The notes under the pieces were generated by a model. The model was given only the letters and a program-made list of their open reading frames with translations. It was not told the DNA's origin and made no database searches. Below are positions 13,190 to 21,229 of a stretch of DNA of 64,000 bases, one piece after another. The position numbers and the translations under genes are program-made. The stretch is from Pseudomonas protegens (GTDB lineage: Bacteria; Pseudomonadota; Gammaproteobacteria; Pseudomonadales; Pseudomonadaceae), in contig NZ_CP060201.1 in the NCBI RefSeq assembly GCF_013407925.2, positions 4,759,001-4,823,000 on the forward strand, written 5' to 3'. Position 1 is the stretch's first letter, and every line of letters starts with the position of its first letter.

Positions 13190-13828
13190 TCAATCGTCGG
13201 AAGTCTTCTGCTTGTATTCGCACAGGTCTTCGATTCGGCAGCTGCCGCAACGTGGCTTGCGGGCCAGGCAGACATAGCGCCCATGCAGGATCAGCCAGTG
13301 ATGGGAGTCCAGCAGGAACTCCTTGGGCACGAACTTGAGCAGCTTTTTTTCCACTTCCACCACGTTCTTGCCCGGGGCCAGGCCGGTGCGGTTGCTGACC
13401 CGGAAGATGTGGGTGTCCACCGCCATGGTCAACTGCCGGAAGGCGGTGTTGAGGACCACGTTGGCGGTCTTGCGCCCGACGCCGGGCAGGGCTTCCAGCT
13501 CTTCGCGGGTCTGCGGCACTTCGCCGTTGTGGCGTTCCACCAGCAGGCGGCAGGTTTCGATGACGTTCTTGGCCTTGCTGTTGTACAGGCCGATGGTCTT
13601 GATGTACTCGGACAGGCCTTCGACTCCCAGGGCATGGATCGCCGCGGGGGTATTGGCCACAGGGAAGAGTTTGGCGGTCGCCTTGTTGACCCCGACGTCG
13701 GTCGATTGCGCCGAAAGAATCACCGCGATCAGCAGCTCGAACGGCGAGGAATAGGCCAGTTCGGTCTTGGGCTCGGGGTTGTCTTCATGAAGTCGGCGAA
13801 ATATTTCCAGGCGTTTGGCGGCATTCAT
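13190..13828 (-). CDS. nth: Endonuclease III
   Basis: DNA glycosylase/AP lyase for oxidised pyrimidines, 212 residues. The helix-hairpin-helix motif LPGVGRKTANVVL contains the catalytic lysine K120; the catalytic aspartate is D138 in VDTHIFRV. The four cysteines of the [4Fe-4S] cluster (C-x6-C-x2-C-x5-C, in CLARKPRCGSCRIEDLC) close the protein. It is the last gene of the rnf operon, starting 7 bp after the rnfE stop, the same arrangement as in P. aeruginosa and E. coli. Confidence 0.97.
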   Translation of the reverse strand: MNAAKRLEIFRRLHEDNPEPKTELAYSSPFELLIAVILSAQSTDVGVNKATAKLFPVANTPAAIHALGVEGLSEYIKTIGLYNSKAKNVIETCRLLVERHNGEVPQTREELEALPGVGRKTANVVLNTAFRQLTMAVDTHIFRVSNRTGLAPGKNVVEVEKKLLKFVPKEFLLDSHHWLILHGRYVCLARKPRCGSCRIEDLCEYKQKTSDD

Positions 13829-13835
13829 GGGGGGT

Positions 13836-14432
13836 TCATTTCCTCGAAGACTGTCGTTTGAAGGGCGATGAGGCGGTCCAGGCCCGCTTTGCCGCCAGCA
13901 ACAGGCCCAGCAGGATAAAGCCCCCGGGGCCCAGAGTCAGCAGGCGCACGCCGCCCTGGGGCAGCAGCACCCAGCCGCTGCTGTCGCCGCTCTGGCCGAC
14001 CAGCCAGCCCAGATGGCTGCCCAAGGCGCCGGTGCCCAGCAGCTCGCGCAGCGCGCCCAGCAGTACCAGTGCGCCACAGAAGCCGACGGCCAGGCGCAGT
14101 CGGTCGCGGTGCTGGAAGAATCCCGCCTGTTCCAGCATCACGCATTGCAGGGGCAGCAGGCCCAGGTACAGGCTCAACTGCTGGTGCAGTTCATAACTCA
14201 AGGTTTGCAGCGCCAGCCACAGGCAACTGCCGAGGGATGCACCAAGCAGTAGGCTGGCGAACCACTGCTGCTGGCGTTGCAGGTGGGTTCGCAGCAGGCC
14301 CATGCCAGCCCCAAACAAGCCGAGCAGCAGCGCGGATGCCAGGGCCAGGCCCAGGGCCTTGACCCAGGAGTCGGTGGCCCCGATCAACGGTGTCAGCATC
14401 AGCAGGCCCGGCAAGGTCAGCGGCTTACTCAT
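13836..14432 (-). CDS. rnfE: Rnf/Rsx electron transport subunit E, atypical
   Basis: Integral membrane subunit, 198 residues, about 30 shorter than E. coli RsxE. Family blocks remain: ALGLALASALLLGL, GALRELLGTGALG and the C-terminal GPGGFILLGLLLAAK. The conserved cysteine of the LGLCPLL motif is a threonine here (LMLTPLIG, T14), while the second conserved cysteine (TNC in E. coli) survives as LQCVML, C97. These cysteines are thought to hold an intramembrane Fe-S cluster with RnfA. Overlaps the end of rnfG by 8 bp. Confidence 0.85.
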   Translation of the reverse strand: MSKPLTLPGLLMLTPLIGATDSWVKALGLALASALLLGLFGAGMGLLRTHLQRQQQWFASLLLGASLGSCLWLALQTLSYELHQQLSLYLGLLPLQCVMLEQAGFFQHRDRLRLAVGFCGALVLLGALRELLGTGALGSHLGWLVGQSGDSSGWVLLPQGGVRLLTLGPGGFILLGLLLAAKRAWTASSPFKRQSSRK

Positions 14433-15036
14433 GGGCGGCCCCCGCCAGCAGTTGCTGGCGATGTTCGTCGAAGTAGCGCAAGGCGTCGTGCAAGGCGCTG
14501 ATCACCGCGCGCGAGGTGATGGTGGCGCCGGCAATCTGATCGAACTGGCCGCTGTCCTTCTTCAAGGCCCAGGCGGCATCGCCCGGATCGCTGCGGGACT
14601 TGCCGGAAAAGCCTTGCAACCAGGGGTTGGGCCAATCAGCGATCCGTCCGCCCAAGCCGGGTGTTTCATCCTGCCTGAGGGTCTTGCTGCCCAGCAGGCG
14701 GCCCTGGCTGTCGATGGCGATCAACAGCTCGATGGGGCCGGCATAGCCGCTGACCTGGCTGCGTAACAGCACGGCGCTGGGCTGACCTTGGCGGGTGGCC
14801 AGGTAGCCCTGCAGCAAGCGGCTGTTGTCCAGCTGCACATCCTTCAGGGACAGCGGCTGGTCCAGGGGTTGGTTGTCGTAACTGGCGACGGGCAGCAGGT
14901 CGAGCAGCTTGCGCGCCTGCAGGGCCCGTTGCTCGGCGGCGATACGCGGCGCCGCAACCGAGTGCAGCCACAAGGTCGCCCCCACGCCCAGGAAACCGAG
15001 CAGGATCAGCAGAAGCAGGCCGCTGGATTTTTTCAT
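14425..15036 (-). CDS. rnfG: Rnf/Rsx electron transport subunit G (FMN-binding)
   Basis: A 203-residue membrane-anchored flavoprotein. One N-terminal transmembrane helix (LLLLILLGFLGVGATLWL) is followed by a periplasmic FMN-binding domain. The flavinylation motif is intact in DQIAGATITSRAV, where the threonine of GAT carries FMN through a phosphoester bond. Also typical are DETPGLGGRIAD and the region W-KKDSGQFDQ. The start was set at MKKSSGLLLLI; the longer frame up to 15429 is inside rnfD. Confidence 0.9.
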   Translation of the reverse strand: MKKSSGLLLLILLGFLGVGATLWLHSVAAPRIAAEQRALQARKLLDLLPVASYDNQPLDQPLSLKDVQLDNSRLLQGYLATRQGQPSAVLLRSQVSGYAGPIELLIAIDSQGRLLGSKTLRQDETPGLGGRIADWPNPWLQGFSGKSRSDPGDAAWALKKDSGQFDQIAGATITSRAVISALHDALRYFDEHRQQLLAGAAHE

Positions 15037-15038
15037 GC

Positions 15039-16025
15039 TCAGGCGTTCTCCGGTTTTGCGGCGCACAGGCGTTCCAGTGCCGGCACCGTCAGATTCATCA
15101 GCAGCACGGCGAAGGCGACGCCGTCGGGGTAGCCGCCCCATGTCCGGATCAGGTAGGTCAGCAGGCCGACGCCGACGCCAAACAGCAGCCTGGCTTTTTC
15201 CGTCTTGGGCCCGGATACCGGTTCGGTGACGATGAAGAAGGCGCCGAGCATGCTGGCGCCGCTGAGCAGATGAAACAGCGGCGAGCCATGGGAGTCTGAG
15301 CCCGTGCCGTTCCAGCACAGCAGGCTGATGACCAAGAGGCTGCCCAGCATGCCCACCGGCGCCTGCCAGCCGATGACCCGCTGCTGCAGCAGGAACAGGC
15401 CTCCGGCAAGAAAACCCAGATTGATCCATTGCGCGGCACGTCCGCCGAAGTGGCCGAAGGCGGGGTTGCTGGCAAAGAGTTCGTCGAGGGTCAGGCTCTT
15501 GTTGATGCGCAGACTGTCCAGCGCCGTGGCTTGGGCCCAGGCATCCACGTGCAGACCGTCAGTGAGGCCGAAGACCTGTTGCAGTCCAGCGAGCAGATCC
15601 ATGGCGTGGGGCGCGGGCCAATGGGTCATCGATTGGGGAAAGCACAGCAAGGCCAGGGCGTATCCAAGCATCGCCGGATTGAATGGATTCTGGCCGACTC
15701 CGCCGTACACCTGCTTGCCCAGGGCAATGGCCGCGGCCGCGGCGCTGAGCGGCAGCCACCAGGGGCAGTAAGGTGGCAAGGCCAGGGCCAGCAACGTGGC
15801 GCTGACCAAGGCGCTGCCATCGCCAAGGCCGCTTGGCAGCGCACGCTTTCTCAGACGCAGCGCCAGGGCTTCCATGGCCAGGGCGCCGCACGCCGCCAGC
15901 AACAGGTTGAGCAGCACGCCCCAGCCGAACCACCAGAGCAACACCAGCAGCCCGGGCAATGTGGCCAGCAGCACGCGCTGCATGGCCTGGCGCAGGCGCG
16001 GATCGACGCCGTCAGCGGTCAGCAT
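15039..16025 (-). CDS. rnfD: Rnf/Rsx electron transport subunit D
   Basis: Integral membrane flavoprotein, 328 residues. The block [20 protein letters not shown] matches the family closely, as do [20 protein letters not shown] and [19 protein letters not shown]. The FMN-attachment threonine is present in [11 protein letters not shown], equivalent to SQATPLD of E. coli RsxD. The N-terminus lacks roughly 10-15 residues of the usual leader. It overlaps the end of rnfB by 14 bp, so there is no space for the rnfC gene that normally lies between B and D. Confidence 0.92.
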
Positions 16026-17217
16026 GGGCCTGCACCTGGCGTTCGGCTTCCTGCAGGCGCGCCTGAGCCTCAGCCAGTTGCTCGGCTTGGGTATCAGGTT
16101 GGCGCTGCAGTTTGTTCAGTTCGGCGCGGGCGTAGGCCAGTTCGGTTTTCAGTTGCCGCAGTTGGGGATCGATCGGGCGCTTCTCGATACGCGCCAGGAC
16201 CGGGGCCGGTTTGCCGCAGGCGTCCTCGGCGGCGTGCAGCGCTTGTTCGGCGGCCGCCAAGGCGGCGCTCAAGGCTTGCAGCTCGGCGTCGGAGGCTGGC
16301 GCGGCCTGGGCTTTTTTCAGTTCGGCGCGGCGGCTGGCCAGTTGGATCTTGGCCCGCTTGAGTTCGGCGTCCTTGGCCACGGGGGCCGCCGGGGCGGGCG
16401 CCGCCGACTGCAACTGAGCCAGGGCCTGTTCGGCGGCTTCGAACTGACGCTGCAGAACGATGAGCTGCGTTTGCTGCTCGAAGGTCGGTGGATGACCGAA
16501 GGCCTTGAGGGATTTGTGCAATTGAGCGCGGCTCATGGCCAGCTCGATCTTGGCTTTTTTCAACGCCGCGTCGGCGGCCTCGGCTTTCTGCGCGCGGACC
16601 CGCTCGATGGCCGCCTGCAGCGGATTCTGGCTGTCGTCGACCGCCTGCGCGGCTTTCTGCGCGCGCGCCTGACGCTCGGCCAGGCGCCGGGCTTCTTCGC
16701 GTTGCAAGCGCTCGTTGCGCTGTTCGAAGCGCCGTCGCGCCTGCTCGCGCTTGTGGTTGCGGGCCTGCAGTTGCTCGGGGCTGGTGGCCAGGCCGCCAAC
16801 GATCGGCACCACCTTGGCCTCGGGCAGCGGCAGCATATCGATGCAGTCCACCGGACAAGGCGCCACGCACAGGTCGCAACCGGTGCATTGGTCGATCAGT
16901 ACGCTGTGCATCCATTTGGCCGCGCCGACGATGGCGTCCACCGGGCAGGCCTGGATGCACTTGGTGCAGCCAATGCACTCCGCTTCGCGGATATGGGCGA
17001 TCTGTGCCGGCGCCTGGCCGCGGCTGTGGTCCAGCTCCAGCACCGGCAACTTGAGCAGTTGCGCCAGGCCGGCAATGGTTTCCTGGCCTCCGGGCGGACA
17101 CTTGTTGATGGCCTCGCCATTGGCGATGCCCTGGGCGTAGGGCTTGCATCCGGGATGGCCACATTTGCCGCACTGGGTCTGGGGCAGCAGGGCATCGATG
17201 CGTTGAATCAGACTCAT
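16012..17217 (-). CDS. rnfB: Rnf/Rsx subunit B with long C-terminal tail, no membrane anchor
   Basis: A 401-residue iron-sulfur protein, roughly twice the usual RnfB length. The N-terminal cluster uses C16, C19, C24 and C40; two ferredoxin [4Fe-4S] sites use C81/84/87 with C121 and C111/114/117 with C91. The hydrophobic N-terminal anchor of normal RnfB is missing: the protein begins [19 protein letters not shown]. From about residue 130 runs a 270-residue alanine-rich helical tail with repeated KxELAxxRAELxK-like units and [13 protein letters not shown], resembling the C-terminal tail of RnfC. The start overlaps the rnfA stop (ATGA). Confidence 0.88.
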
Positions 17218-17789
17218 GTTTTGATCAGTCCGTTGAAGCCGAAAAACGCCACTGCCATCAGGCCGGCGCTGATCAGGTCGATCGGCAGGCCGCGCCAGGG
17301 CAGGGGAATATCGTTGGTGGAAATACGCTGGCGCAGGTCGTTGAACAGGCTCAGCACCAGCCAGAAACCCAGTCCGGCCCCCAGGCTCATGGCGCTGAGG
17401 GTGGCCAGGTCCAGATCGTCCCGGGTGCCGATCAGCAGCAGGCCGAGCATGCCGGCATTGCCCAGAAGCAAGGGCCAGAGGCCGTCGAATGGCAAGCGCG
17501 GCAGGGCGCGGGACAGCAGCCTCAGCAGCGGCTTGATCAGCAACAGGCTCAATGGCAGCCAGATGAACAGTTGCAGCGCCTCCAGCCCCCAGGGCTGCAG
17601 CAACCCACGATAAAGAACATGCCCCAGCACGCTGCTGAGCAGCATCAACCCCGTGGTTGCCAGCCCCAGCGCATGGACCCGTTGCCGGTTGCTGTCCGCC
17701 TGCAACAGCGGATCGACGCCCAGCGGCCATTGCAACACGAAGTTGTTGATCAGGACGGTGCTGAAAAGGGCGAGCAGGAAGTGGGTCAT
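17214..17789 (-). CDS. rnfA: Rnf/Rsx electron transport subunit A, cysteine-free
   Basis: Integral membrane protein, 191 residues, first gene of the operon. The family is clear from [27 protein letters not shown] and the C-terminal [13 protein letters not shown]. The two cysteines conserved in RnfA/NqrE are gone: LGLCP reads LGVDP (D26) and TNCAVLG reads GNAGMLG (A112); the whole protein has no cysteine. In Rnf and Na+-NQR these residues, with partners in RnfE/NqrD, bind an intramembrane iron-sulfur cluster. The start [10 protein letters not shown] was chosen by homology; the frame extends to 17822. Confidence 0.88.
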
Positions 17790-17920: not shown

Positions 17921-19972
17921 TTACTTGATCCGCTGGCCTGGCTTGGCGCCGCTGTCCGGGCTCAGCAGGTAGATCTCTTCGCCGCCAGGGCCGGCAGCCA
18001 TCACCATGCCTTCGGAGATGCCGAACTTCATTTTCCGCGGCTTGAGGTTGGCGATCATCATGGTCAGGCGACCATCGAGCTTGGACGGATCCGGGTAGGC
18101 GCTCTTGATTCCGGAGAACACGTTGCGTTGCTCATCACCGATATCCAGGGTCAGGCGCAGCAGCTTGTCGGCGCCTTCCACGGCTTCGGCCTTGACGATC
18201 AAGGCGACGCGCAAATCAACGGCGGCGAAGGTGTCGAAGTCGATTTCCGGCGACAGTGGATCCTTGGCCAGTTCGCCGTTGCCTGCTGGCGTGGCGGCAC
18301 CGGTGTCGGTCTGGCTGGCGGTCAGGTCTTCTTTCGAGGCGTCGGTCATGGCTTGGACTTTTACCGGGTCGATCCGCGTCATCAGCGGCTTGAATTCATT
18401 GAGCTGATGGTTGGCCAGCAGCTGTTGGTGGTCATTCCAGGTCAGCGGGGCAACGTTGAGGAAGGCCTCGGCGTCGGCGGCCAGCAGCGGCAGCACCGGC
18501 TTGAGGAAGATCACCAGTTGGCGGAACAGGTTGATACCGGTGGCGCAGATGGCCTGCACCTCGGCCTGCTTGCCTTCCTGCTTGTTCAACGACCACGGGG
18601 CCTTATCGGCGATCCAGGCGTTGGCGCGGTCGGCCAGGGCCATGATTTCGCGCATGGCACGGGCAAAGTCGCGGGCTTCATAGGCGTCGGCGATGCTGGG
18701 CGCGGCCGCCAGGAAGGCCTCGGTTAGCTCGGGAGCGGCATTGCTGTCGACCATCAGCCCGGCATTGCCTTTGTGAATGAAGCCGGCGCAACGGCTGGCG
18801 ATGTTCACCACCTTGCCCACCAGGTCGGAGTTGACCTTCTGCACGAAGTCTTCGAGGTTCAGGTCCAGGTCGTCGACGCCACGGCCCAGCTTGGAGGCGT
18901 AGTAGTAGCGCAGGTATTCCGGCGACAGGTGCTCCAGGTAGGTGCGGGCCTTGATGAAGGTGCCGCGGGACTTGGACATCTTCTGGCCGTTGACGGTCAG
19001 GTAACCGTGGACGTTGATGCCGCTCGGCTTGCGGTAGCCGGCGCCTTCGAGCATGGCGGGCCAGAACAGGGCGTGGAAGTTGACGATGTCCTTGCCGATG
19101 AAGTGGTACAGCTCGGCAGTGGAGTCCTTGCCCCAGAACGCGTCGAAATCCAGTTCCGGACGACGGGCGCAGAGGTTCTTGAAGCTGGCCATGTAGCCGA
19201 TCGGCGCGTCCAGCCACACGTAGAAATACTTGCCCGGCTCATCCGGGATCTCGAAGCCGAAGTACGGCGCGTCGCGGGAGATGTCCCACTGCTGCAGGCC
19301 GGCATCCAGCCACTCGGCGATCTTGTTGGCCACGGCGTCCTGCAAGGTGCCGCTGCGGGTCCAGCTTTGCAGCATCTGCTGGAAGTCCGGCAGCTTGAAG
19401 AAGAAGTGCTGGGAATCCTTGAGCACCGGGGTGGCGCCGGAGATCGCCGACTTCGGATCCTTCAGATCGGTCGGGGCATAGGTGGCGCCGCATTTTTCGC
19501 AGTTGTCGCCGTACTGGTCCTCAGTGCCGCATTTCGGGCAGGTGCCCTTGATGAAGCGGTCGGCCAGGAACATTTTCTTTTCCGGGTCGAAATACTGGGT
19601 GATGGAGCGCGTGGCGATGTGCCCGGCGTCCCGCAGCTTGAGGTAGATCTGGCTCGACAGCTCGCGGTTTTCTTCGGCGTGGGTCGAGTGGAAGTTGTCG
19701 AAGTCCACCAGGAAGTCGGCAAAGTCGGCGCTGTGTTCGGCCTGGACGTTGGCGATCAGTTGTTCCGGGGTGATGCCTTCCTTTTCCGCGCGCAACATGA
19801 TGGCCGAGCCGTGTGCGTCGTCGGCGCAGACATAGATGCATTGGTTGCCGCGATGCTTCTGGAAGCGCACCCACATGTCGGTCTGGATGTACTCAAGCAT
19901 GTGGCCAAGGTGGATGGAACCATTGGCATAGGGCAGGGCGCTGGTGACGAGGATCTTGCGTGGCTCGGACAT
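17921..19972 (-). CDS. metG: Methionyl-tRNA synthetase
   Basis: Class I synthetase, 683 residues. The HIGH motif is HLGH at residues 21-24 and the KMSKS loop is in [13 protein letters not shown] zinc knuckle carries [17 protein letters not shown]. The C-terminal EMAP/Trbp111 tRNA-binding domain starts near [17 protein letters not shown] and gives dimerisation. It is divergent from apbC, with about 160 bp between the two starts, as in related genomes. Confidence 0.97.
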
Positions 19973-20134
19973 GGGGCTCGGCTACTTGATGAAACGGAGG
20001 TCGGCCACTATAAAGCGCCAGCGCGGATTTTTCACCCTTCCGGACAGATTGTGCGCAGCAGGCTCCCTCGCCACGAAGGAGTCGGCGGCGTAGGATAGCC
20101 GGCTGATTTTCCAGTCTTGTTATCGGAGTTGCCC

Positions 20135-21229
20135 ATGAGCGCCGTCAATCGCGCAGCGGTGGAAGCCGTCCTTCGCCAATACACCGACCCTTACCTGAAC
20201 CAGGACCCGGTCAGCGCCGGCTGCGTGCGGGACATCGATGTCCAGGGCGACCGGGTCACGGTCCGCATGGAACTGGGTTATGCCGCCGGTCTGTTCAAGA
20301 GCGGCTGGGCACAGATGCTGCAACTGGCCATCGAAGGCCTGGACGGTGTCAGCTCGGCCAAGGTCGAGATCACCAGCGTGATCGCCGCGCACAAGGCCCA
20401 GGCGCAGATCCCCGGCCTGGCCAACGTCAAGAACGTGGTGGCGGTGGCGTCTGGCAAGGGCGGCGTGGGCAAGTCCACCACCGCGGCCAACCTGGCCCTG
20501 GCCCTGGCCCGCGAAGGCGCCAAGGTGGGGATTCTCGATGCCGATATCTATGGCCCGAGCCAGGGCATCATGTTCGGCATCGCCGAAGGCACCCGGCCGA
20601 AGATCAAGGACCAGAAGTGGTTCGTGCCTATTGAGTCCCATGGGGTCGAGGTCATGTCCATGGCCTTCCTGACCGACGACAACACGCCGATGGTCTGGCG
20701 CGGGCCAATGGTTTCCGGTGCCTTGCTGCAACTGGTGACCCAGACCGACTGGGGCAATCTCGATTACCTGGTGATCGACATGCCGCCAGGCACCGGCGAC
20801 ATCCAGCTGACCCTGGCGCAGAAAGTCCCGGTGGCCGGCGCGGTGATCGTCACCACGCCCCAGGACCTGGCGCTGCTGGATGCGCGCAAGGGCGTGGAGA
20901 TGTTCCGCAAGGTCAACATCCCGGTGCTGGGCGTGGTGGAGAACATGGCGGTGCACATCTGCTCCAACTGCGGCCATGCCGAGCATCTGTTTGGCGAAGG
21001 CGGCGGCGAGAAGCTGGCCAGCCAGTACGACGTCGAGCTGCTGGCCTCGCTGCCGCTGTCGATGCTGATCCGCGAGCAGGCCGACGGCGGCAAGCCGACG
21101 GTGATCGCCGAGCCGGAAAGCCAGATTGCCATGGTCTATCAGGAACTGGCGCGGCATGTCGGTGCGCGCATCGTGCTGCAGGAGGCCGCGGCGCCGGCGA
21201 TGCCCAGCATTACCGTCAGCGATGACTGA
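20135..21229 (+). CDS. apbC: Iron-sulfur cluster carrier ApbC/Mrp
   Basis: P-loop scaffold or carrier for Fe-S clusters, 364 residues. An N-terminal MIP18-like domain (about residues 1-85) precedes the NTPase. The deviant Walker A is SGKGGVGKST near residues 107-115, and the cluster-binding CxxC is in ICSNCGHAEHLFGEGGG. The start is the ATG of MSAVNRAAVEAVL, preceded by CGGAG. It faces metG head to head and ends at a strong terminator. Confidence 0.95.
   Translation: MSAVNRAAVEAVLRQYTDPYLNQDPVSAGCVRDIDVQGDRVTVRMELGYAAGLFKSGWAQMLQLAIEGLDGVSSAKVEITSVIAAHKAQAQIPGLANVKNVVAVASGKGGVGKSTTAANLALALAREGAKVGILDADIYGPSQGIMFGIAEGTRPKIKDQKWFVPIESHGVEVMSMAFLTDDNTPMVWRGPMVSGALLQLVTQTDWGNLDYLVIDMPPGTGDIQLTLAQKVPVAGAVIVTTPQDLALLDARKGVEMFRKVNIPVLGVVENMAVHICSNCGHAEHLFGEGGGEKLASQYDVELLASLPLSMLIREQADGGKPTVIAEPESQIAMVYQELARHVGARIVLQEAAAPAMPSITVSDD

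Follow-up and report, generated by a model that had tools for sequence, protein, structure and literature searches.

Can an Rnf operon that lacks RnfC, the subunit acting on reduced nicotinamide adenine dinucleotide (NADH), still form a working machine, and of what kind? The question is raised by a locus of Pseudomonas protegens in a stretch of 64,000 nucleotides (here called the window; contig NZ_CP060201.1, positions 4,759,001 to 4,823,000). The genome is complete, with 6.82 Mb on one contig (label G000). On the minus strand of the window, the gene order is metG-rnfA-rnfB-rnfD-rnfG-rnfE-nth, and the operon contains no rnfC. We give a probability of about 60% to the following reading: Rnf would have been uncoupled into a soluble polyferredoxin and a flavin-only transmembrane conduit of RnfD and RnfG, standing on a scaffold of RnfA and RnfE.

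A first-pass annotation, made from the letters of the window alone, had described this order without an rnfC slot and a 14-bp overlap of rnfB and rnfD. Both were found as described (rnfB stop 16012, rnfD start 16025); in addition, the start of rnfB overlaps the stop of rnfA by 4 bp. The rnfC model TIGR01945 gave nothing over its cut-off in the same genome (best: 57.5 bits), and an RnfC elsewhere in the genome was ruled out at that cut-off. The sole match to RnfC_N (PF13375) lay in a protein with a biotinyl domain that, by eye, is a subunit of an oxaloacetate decarboxylase/pyruvate carboxylase.

The locus was followed through 149 Pseudomonas genomes, in which counts refer to matches over the model cut-offs. 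rnfB, rnfC and rnfD were found together in 19 genomes. Another 77 had rnfB and rnfD but lacked rnfC at the metG-nth locus; one of these (G022) also has a separate rnfC-bearing operon. Eleven genomes had rnfD without rnfB, 34 had rnfB without rnfD and eight had neither. The DNA was read for 59 of the 77 (window included), for 11 of the 11, for 10 of the 19, for the additional operon of G022, and for 18 of 33 rnfB-only loci. All 18 orphan rnfB genes lay between metG and nth. One of the 34 rnfB-only genomes (G034, locus L117) showed frame breaks in rnfD and in a distant apbE; this genome is 95% complete, and the breaks are possibly assembly errors.

The iron-sulphur (Fe-S) cluster ligands of RnfA and RnfE are largely gone. 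Solved RnfA chains have the motifs LG(I/L)CP and TNC, and the window RnfA has LGVDP and GNA and not a single cysteine. As the first-pass annotation had stated, RnfE lost the first of its two cluster cysteines (LMLTP) and kept the second, so one of four ligands is left. In the operons read with rnfC, all four cysteines were present (11/11). In the RnfC-less operons, both RnfA sites and the first RnfE site were never cysteine (0/69), and the second RnfE site (LQC) was cysteine in 67 of 69. The first RnfA site was aspartate in 55 of the 69, a point absent from that annotation. No column of the RnfA alignment held cysteine in more than 24 of the 69 operons, which rules out that the cysteines moved to other RnfA positions; 14 of the 69 RnfA, including that of the window, had no cysteine at all.

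A search of named genomes gave the same picture. Among the matches listed, all 80 relatives of the window RnfA came from Pseudomonas, both RnfA cysteines were missing in 80 of 80 loci, and the first site was aspartate in 77. The stretches fetched for these loci showed no rnfC. As an RnfC-less RnfA served as the query, this gives the spread and not the frequency of the form.

The window RnfA scored 103–114 bits with the RnfA models of NCBIfam (cut-offs 229–240), and the window RnfE scored 73–84 bits with the RnfE models (cut-offs 184–213). The AlphaFold model of RnfA had a predicted local distance difference test (pLDDT) value of 79, and the segment around the lost first ligand was the least certain. 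Its best matches were RnfA/NqrE, with template modelling (TM) scores by query of 0.60–0.70 for the first seven; for 8ahx_A, the TM score was 0.70 and the overall root-mean-square deviation was 7.4 Å.

According to the accessible part of PMC12174285, the [2Fe-2S] cluster of RnfA/E in solved complexes passes electrons from RnfB to RnfG, and RnfD hands them to RnfC. With the relay and RnfC both missing, both ends of the canonical Rnf loop are cut. Judged by the ligands missing in 69 of 69 operons, the canonical membrane Fe-S relay cannot form, as the first-pass annotation had supposed.

RnfB was altered in another way (RnfB* in the following). From rnfA up to its first Fe-S motif, the window rnfB showed no hydrophobic segment; hence, the membrane anchor is gone. 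None of the 59 RnfC-less operons with rnfB encodes the anchor, and all 11 operons with rnfC do. All 13 cysteines of canonical Pseudomonas RnfB were kept in these 59 RnfC-less operons, the window included. The tail, put at 270 residues by the first-pass annotation (273 in our comparison), matched the C-terminal region of an RnfC from Pseudomonas (L083) in BLASTP with 62% identity over 164 residues (85.5 bits, E 1.6e-23), and the best of 200 shuffles reached 18.9 bits. The last, non-repetitive block of 43 residues matched the RnfC tail with E 1.4e-13. By this alignment, the RnfB* tail is homologous to the RnfC C-terminus. A small profile of five RnfC tails (61–78 residues, strong composition bias) did not have the window RnfB* among its matches; the identity of the tail therefore rests on the BLASTP and shuffle comparison with L083. 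In the AlphaFold model, the tail was a series of long helices; the whole-protein pLDDT was 69, the predicted TM score was 0.31, and the head was unreliable. The accessible part of PMC12174285 describes the role of the long RnfC tail as not yet understood.

The flavin sites were kept. The motifs for flavin mononucleotide (FMN) are present in the window RnfD (QAT) and RnfG (GAT), as first annotated. Among the RnfC-less operons, the RnfD site was threonine in 68 and serine in 1 of 69, and the RnfG site was threonine in 67 and serine in 2 of 69. RnfG was the only FMN_bind (PF04205) match in its genome; FMN_bind matches occurred in 110 of the 149 genomes, which is also the number with rnfD matches at E 0.001. 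ApbE, by which FMN of this kind is attached, was found in every genome that had rnfD over cut-off (107/107) vs 10 of 42 others (Fisher p 4e-24, kinship ignored). The own genome has two ApbE matches. One apbE adjoins a transhydrogenase gene (sthA by eye), here and in three other genomes inspected.

The ratio of non-synonymous to synonymous substitution rates (dN/dS) was calculated for close pairs, 11 RnfC-less and 3 with rnfC. It lay between 0.00 and 0.40 in every gene of the 11 RnfC-less pairs, far from the values near 1 that decay would leave. RnfD was alike without and with rnfC (0.08–0.16 vs 0.08–0.18), and the RnfB head (≤0.15 without rnfC) was about as constrained as with rnfC. RnfG was tighter without rnfC (0.11–0.22 vs 0.17–0.34). 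RnfA (0.13–0.38 vs 0.02–0.09) and RnfE (0.19–0.40 vs 0.11–0.17) were looser, as would be the case for subunits that now serve as scaffold and no longer as relay. By these ratios, the kept parts of the RnfC-less operon are under purifying selection. The first-pass claim that this is not simple decay agrees with the ratios, the kept motifs and the presence of ApbE in 107 of 107 genomes.

The RnfC-less RnfD formed one clade in a quick tree of 32 rows (Shimodaira–Hasegawa-like approximate likelihood ratio test 98), next to the RnfD of rnfC-bearing Pseudomonas metG-nth operons. The 14-bp overlap of rnfB and rnfD was shared by 51 of the 59 RnfC-less operons with rnfB, and some overlap by 58 of 59. 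The single clade and the shared overlap together identify the loss of RnfC as one old event with vertical inheritance. On a tree of MetG and Nth, the presence of A-D-G-E changed about 11 times and that of RnfB four times. This was also a quick tree, with the base of the genus unresolved and several rnfC-bearing loci having only part of MetG; supported branches alone force fewer changes (six for the RnfB-only state, three for the A-D-G-E-only state). Given these repeated changes, RnfB* is viable without A-D-G-E, and A-D-G-E without RnfB. By their distribution, the two parts are separable and were lost independently of each other.

Outside Pseudomonas, 229 class-level genomes were searched. rnfD was over cut-off in 143 and rnfC in 131, and the two sets were matched by eye among the matches listed. 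Six candidates for an RnfC-less core were fetched. L202 and L203 have an RnfB–RnfC fusion with all relay cysteines kept; L204, L205 and L207, all at contig ends, have an RnfE with both cysteines; L206 is another RnfD locus with no RnfA/E within reach. Seven more genomes were searched for RnfA/E-type proteins: three had an RnfB–RnfC fusion, one had an ordinary RnfA, two had RnfA/E-type matches not read as RnfA, and one had no match. No second case of the Pseudomonas form was seen among these six candidates and seven genomes, which does not exclude one.

The fusions come from three other gammaproteobacterial families (G241, G362, G258, G375 and G283). There, an anchored RnfB is joined to the Fe-S domain and tail of RnfC, and only the NADH/FMN domain of RnfC is lost. 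In a protein search with one fusion, 117 of the 120 matches listed aligned over at least 75% of its length. The RnfA ligands were cysteine as usual in L202, L203 and G283. Beside the fusions of G258 and G375, the first RnfA ligand was histidine (LGLHP) and the second cysteine was kept; this RnfA possibly holds a cluster with a histidine ligand. As fusion lineages keep the relay ligands, loss of the NADH domain alone does not cost the relay. Among the genomes compared, the lineage without the relay is the one that has also lost the RnfB anchor and the Fe-S domain of RnfC. Within Pseudomonas, the cysteines and rnfC were lost together (69/69 vs 11/11), as one event and not many; in the three other families, the NADH domain is missing and relay ligands are still there.

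Six orphan RnfB from class-level genomes without an rnfD match also lacked the anchor by eye. They do not end as RnfB encoded beside rnfC does (W-K-W-P type). With the small RnfC-tail profile, five of the six tails beat their own 50 shuffles and one did not. A soluble RnfB with an RnfC-like tail looks recurrent.

Our preferred reading is of a relic-derived variant that would still work, the Rnf loop having been cut into two modules kept in one operon. One module would be RnfB*, its Fe-S head taken off the membrane by the loss of the anchor and continued, in the same reading frame, by the long tail from the RnfC C-terminus. RnfB* is probably a soluble polyferredoxin, with the tail as a docking or oligomerisation element. 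The other module would be RnfA-D-G-E, in which the sites where ApbE attaches FMN are preserved on RnfD and RnfG. With the NADH subunit and the [2Fe-2S] relay of RnfA/E gone, the loop from ferredoxin through the relay, RnfG, RnfD and RnfC to NAD is impossible. The remnant would be a transmembrane conduit made of flavins only, linking the cytoplasmic side of RnfD with the periplasmic RnfG. RnfA/E would serve as a scaffold, the FMNs would be attached to RnfD and RnfG, and electrons would flow, more likely outwards. Candidate donors are RnfB*, another ferredoxin or quinol, and the acceptor would be periplasmic. RnfB* is not taken as a necessary input, because a soluble tailed RnfB looks recurrent; with a lower probability, it may have a role of its own near nth, as a second and soluble electron carrier.

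The first-pass annotation had suggested a rewired complex with another electron donor. The explanation nearest to it is that the tail holds RnfB* docked on RnfD in the place of RnfC, with ferredoxin electrons passing into the riboflavin of RnfD, then to its FMN, to the FMN of RnfG and to a periplasmic acceptor. We consider this unlikely. rnfB and rnfD do stand together without rnfC at the locus in 77 of 149 genomes and overlap in 58 of 59 operons read, the tail derives from RnfC, to which RnfD normally passes its electrons, the long RnfC helix touches RnfB in A. vinelandii (accessible part of PMC12174285), and RnfB is found joined to the Fe-S domain and tail of RnfC in other lineages. However, rnfD occurs without rnfB in 11 of 149 genomes, a state that changes at least three times on supported branches, and rnfB occurs without rnfD in 34. 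Of the earlier suggestion, the lost relay stands, another electron donor is possible, and a single complex fed through RnfB finds no support, the two genes being separable.

That the operon has lost its importance and is slowly eroding, with the apparent design as late decay, is improbable. It would account for the repeated changes within the genus (about 11 of A-D-G-E, 4 of RnfB), the relaxed dN/dS of RnfA/E and the deletion of the first RnfA half-helix in one clade, but dN/dS is ≤0.40 in every gene of 11 pairs, and the bearers examined still have the FMN sites, the RnfB cysteines and ApbE. Least probable is that the operon keeps the role of RsxABCDGE, in which SoxR is held reduced, as reported for E. 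coli Rsx in the accessible part of PMC12174285. No dependence on RnfB was seen: SoxR passed its cut-off in 17 of the 19 genomes that lack RnfB, in 89 of the 130 that have it, and in only 4 of the 19 with rnfB, rnfC and rnfD together.

Several points weigh against the uncoupled Rnf that we prefer. A single origin means n=1 for the joint loss of cysteines and rnfC. About 11 changes of A-D-G-E make these genes dispensable for many species. RnfE has two well-conserved cysteine columns in the RnfC-less operons (67/69 and 59/69), so there may be some metal site in RnfE, and shifted cysteines are not wholly ruled out for this subunit. With kinship taken into account and two genomes with Nqr left out, 3.6 of 5 supported independent pairs linked ApbE and A-D-G-E in the same direction and none in the opposite one (p 0.125). 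The second apbE of the window genome (L209, G000:C1:700518-711363) adjoins, by eye, a PepSY-type flavoprotein gene and a two-component system; one ApbE may therefore serve something else. Finally, the raised dN/dS of RnfA/E may also fit slow erosion.

Compared with Rnf/Rsx (RnfABCDGE), the window is alike in the locus, the gene order minus rnfC, the FMN sites of RnfD and RnfG, the Fe-S cysteines of RnfB and the nth neighbour, and unlike in the missing RnfC, the single remaining RnfA/E ligand of four, the missing RnfB anchor and the RnfC tail on RnfB. An RnfC with an NADH/FMN domain, four RnfA/E cysteines and an anchored RnfB were not found in the window; the Fe-S motifs of RnfB, the FMN motifs of RnfD and RnfG (at sequence level) and an ApbE in the genome were. 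The orphan RnfB of NCBIfam (PRK06991, PRK08764) share the anchor-less head with a tail, but the window RnfB* still stands in an operon with A-D-G-E, and its tail is longer and plainly of the Pseudomonas RnfC type; it scored 244.9 bits with PRK06991 (cut-off 281) and 179.1 with PRK08764 (cut-off 220). For Nqr/Rnf-like systems, the accessible part of Meheust et al. 2021 (PMC8238504) proposes a one-way flavin conduit of an RnfD-like and an FMN-binding protein, which is similar; theirs fuse the NqrB/RnfD domain to a NAD-binding PF00175 domain, and the window has none. Na+-NQR has a homologous D/G/A/E core and no RnfC; the window operon has neither NqrF nor NqrA, and its four core subunits lie far below the NqrB–E cut-offs. 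NqrB has two extra N-terminal helices for quinone (accessible part of PMC12174285). The window RnfD (328 residues) is not longer than that of an rnfC-bearing operon (L083, 343 residues); an NqrB-like quinone site through an N-terminal extension was rejected on this ground, and quinone is not favoured as a partner. No description of an RnfC-less or cysteine-less Rnf in Pseudomonas was found in the accessible literature (including parts of PMC12174285, PMC8238504, PMC10979944, PMC4014512 and PMC4521836), which mostly excludes subscription journals and leaves novelty unproven.

Table. Coordinates and supporting evidence for the rnf locus of the window and for related RnfB forms elsewhere
Feature	Position	Strand	Evidence or remark
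rnfA, RnfA-like membrane subunit without Cys	17214..17789	-	Pfam Rnf-Nqr 65.5 bits (cut-off 23.8); matches solved RnfA chains
RnfA codon, first cluster-ligand site: Asp (LGVDP)	17712..17714	-	alignment to solved RnfA
RnfA codon, second cluster-ligand site: Ala (GNA)	17454..17456	-	alignment to solved RnfA
rnfB*, anchor-less RnfB Fe-S head with RnfC-type C-terminal tail, 401 residues	16012..17217	-	TIGR01944 212.7 bits (cut-off 68.7)
RnfB* head, 128 residues, 13 Cys kept	16834..17217	-	comparison with canonical Pseudomonas RnfB
RnfB* tail, 273 residues, homologous to RnfC C-terminal repeat tail	16015..16833	-	BLASTP; modelled as long helices
rnfD, FMN-threonine motif AQATALD	15039..16025	-	TIGR01946 361.8 bits (cut-off 207.05)
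rnfG, FMN-threonine motif GATIT	14425..15036	-	TIGR01947 151.3 bits
rnfE, RnfE-like membrane subunit, one of two ligand Cys	13836..14432	-	Pfam Rnf-Nqr 56.8 bits
RnfE codon, first cluster-ligand site: Thr (LMLTP)	14391..14393	-	alignment; operon comparison
RnfE second ligand Cys, kept (LPLQC)	14142..14144	-	operon comparison
nth, endonuclease III, conserved downstream neighbour	13190..13828	-	TIGR01083 287 bits
metG (presumed), conserved upstream neighbour	17921..19972	-	synteny in relatives
RnfB–RnfC Fe-S domain and tail fusions	L202:7246-8217; L203:4084-5052; L247 (G375); L250 (G258); L251		three gammaproteobacterial families
Orphan anchor-less RnfB with tail	L213, L214, L215, L218, L234, L240		other gammaproteobacterial families; nth adjoining in 4/6

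The upstream neighbour is a gene that we take to be metG. Upstream of it, on the opposite strand (20117-21229, plus), lies a gene that by eye encodes a P-loop ATPase of the Mrp/ApbC type. Two Pseudomonas genomes (G057 and G093; L243:5881-8228 and L244:5773-8258) carry a two-gene rnfC-rnfD unit beside an apbE on the opposite strand, without rnfA, rnfB, rnfG or rnfE. Its RnfC has the NADH/FMN domain and both Fe-S motifs, and its RnfD has a GAT motif. Seven of the 149 genomes have an rnfC in this range of scores (372–390 bits). A nif-type Rnf as the identity of these seven was dropped, as the two that were read are this two-gene unit.

Model libraries file the proteins of the window with Rnf/Rsx subunits, from which a ferredoxin:NAD ion pump would be expected, whereas the sequence says that the canonical pump cannot form. 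In the variant, the two arms of the Rnf electron loop are naturally separate, and it can be seen which of them do without the others. Three questions become testable: what RnfA/E do beyond holding the cluster, whether RnfD and RnfG suffice for electron transfer through the membrane, and what function the long RnfC tail has. Many Pseudomonas species have an Rnf without its NADH part and relay, and what is left of it is under selection; our results suggest a machine that was split and has a different job.

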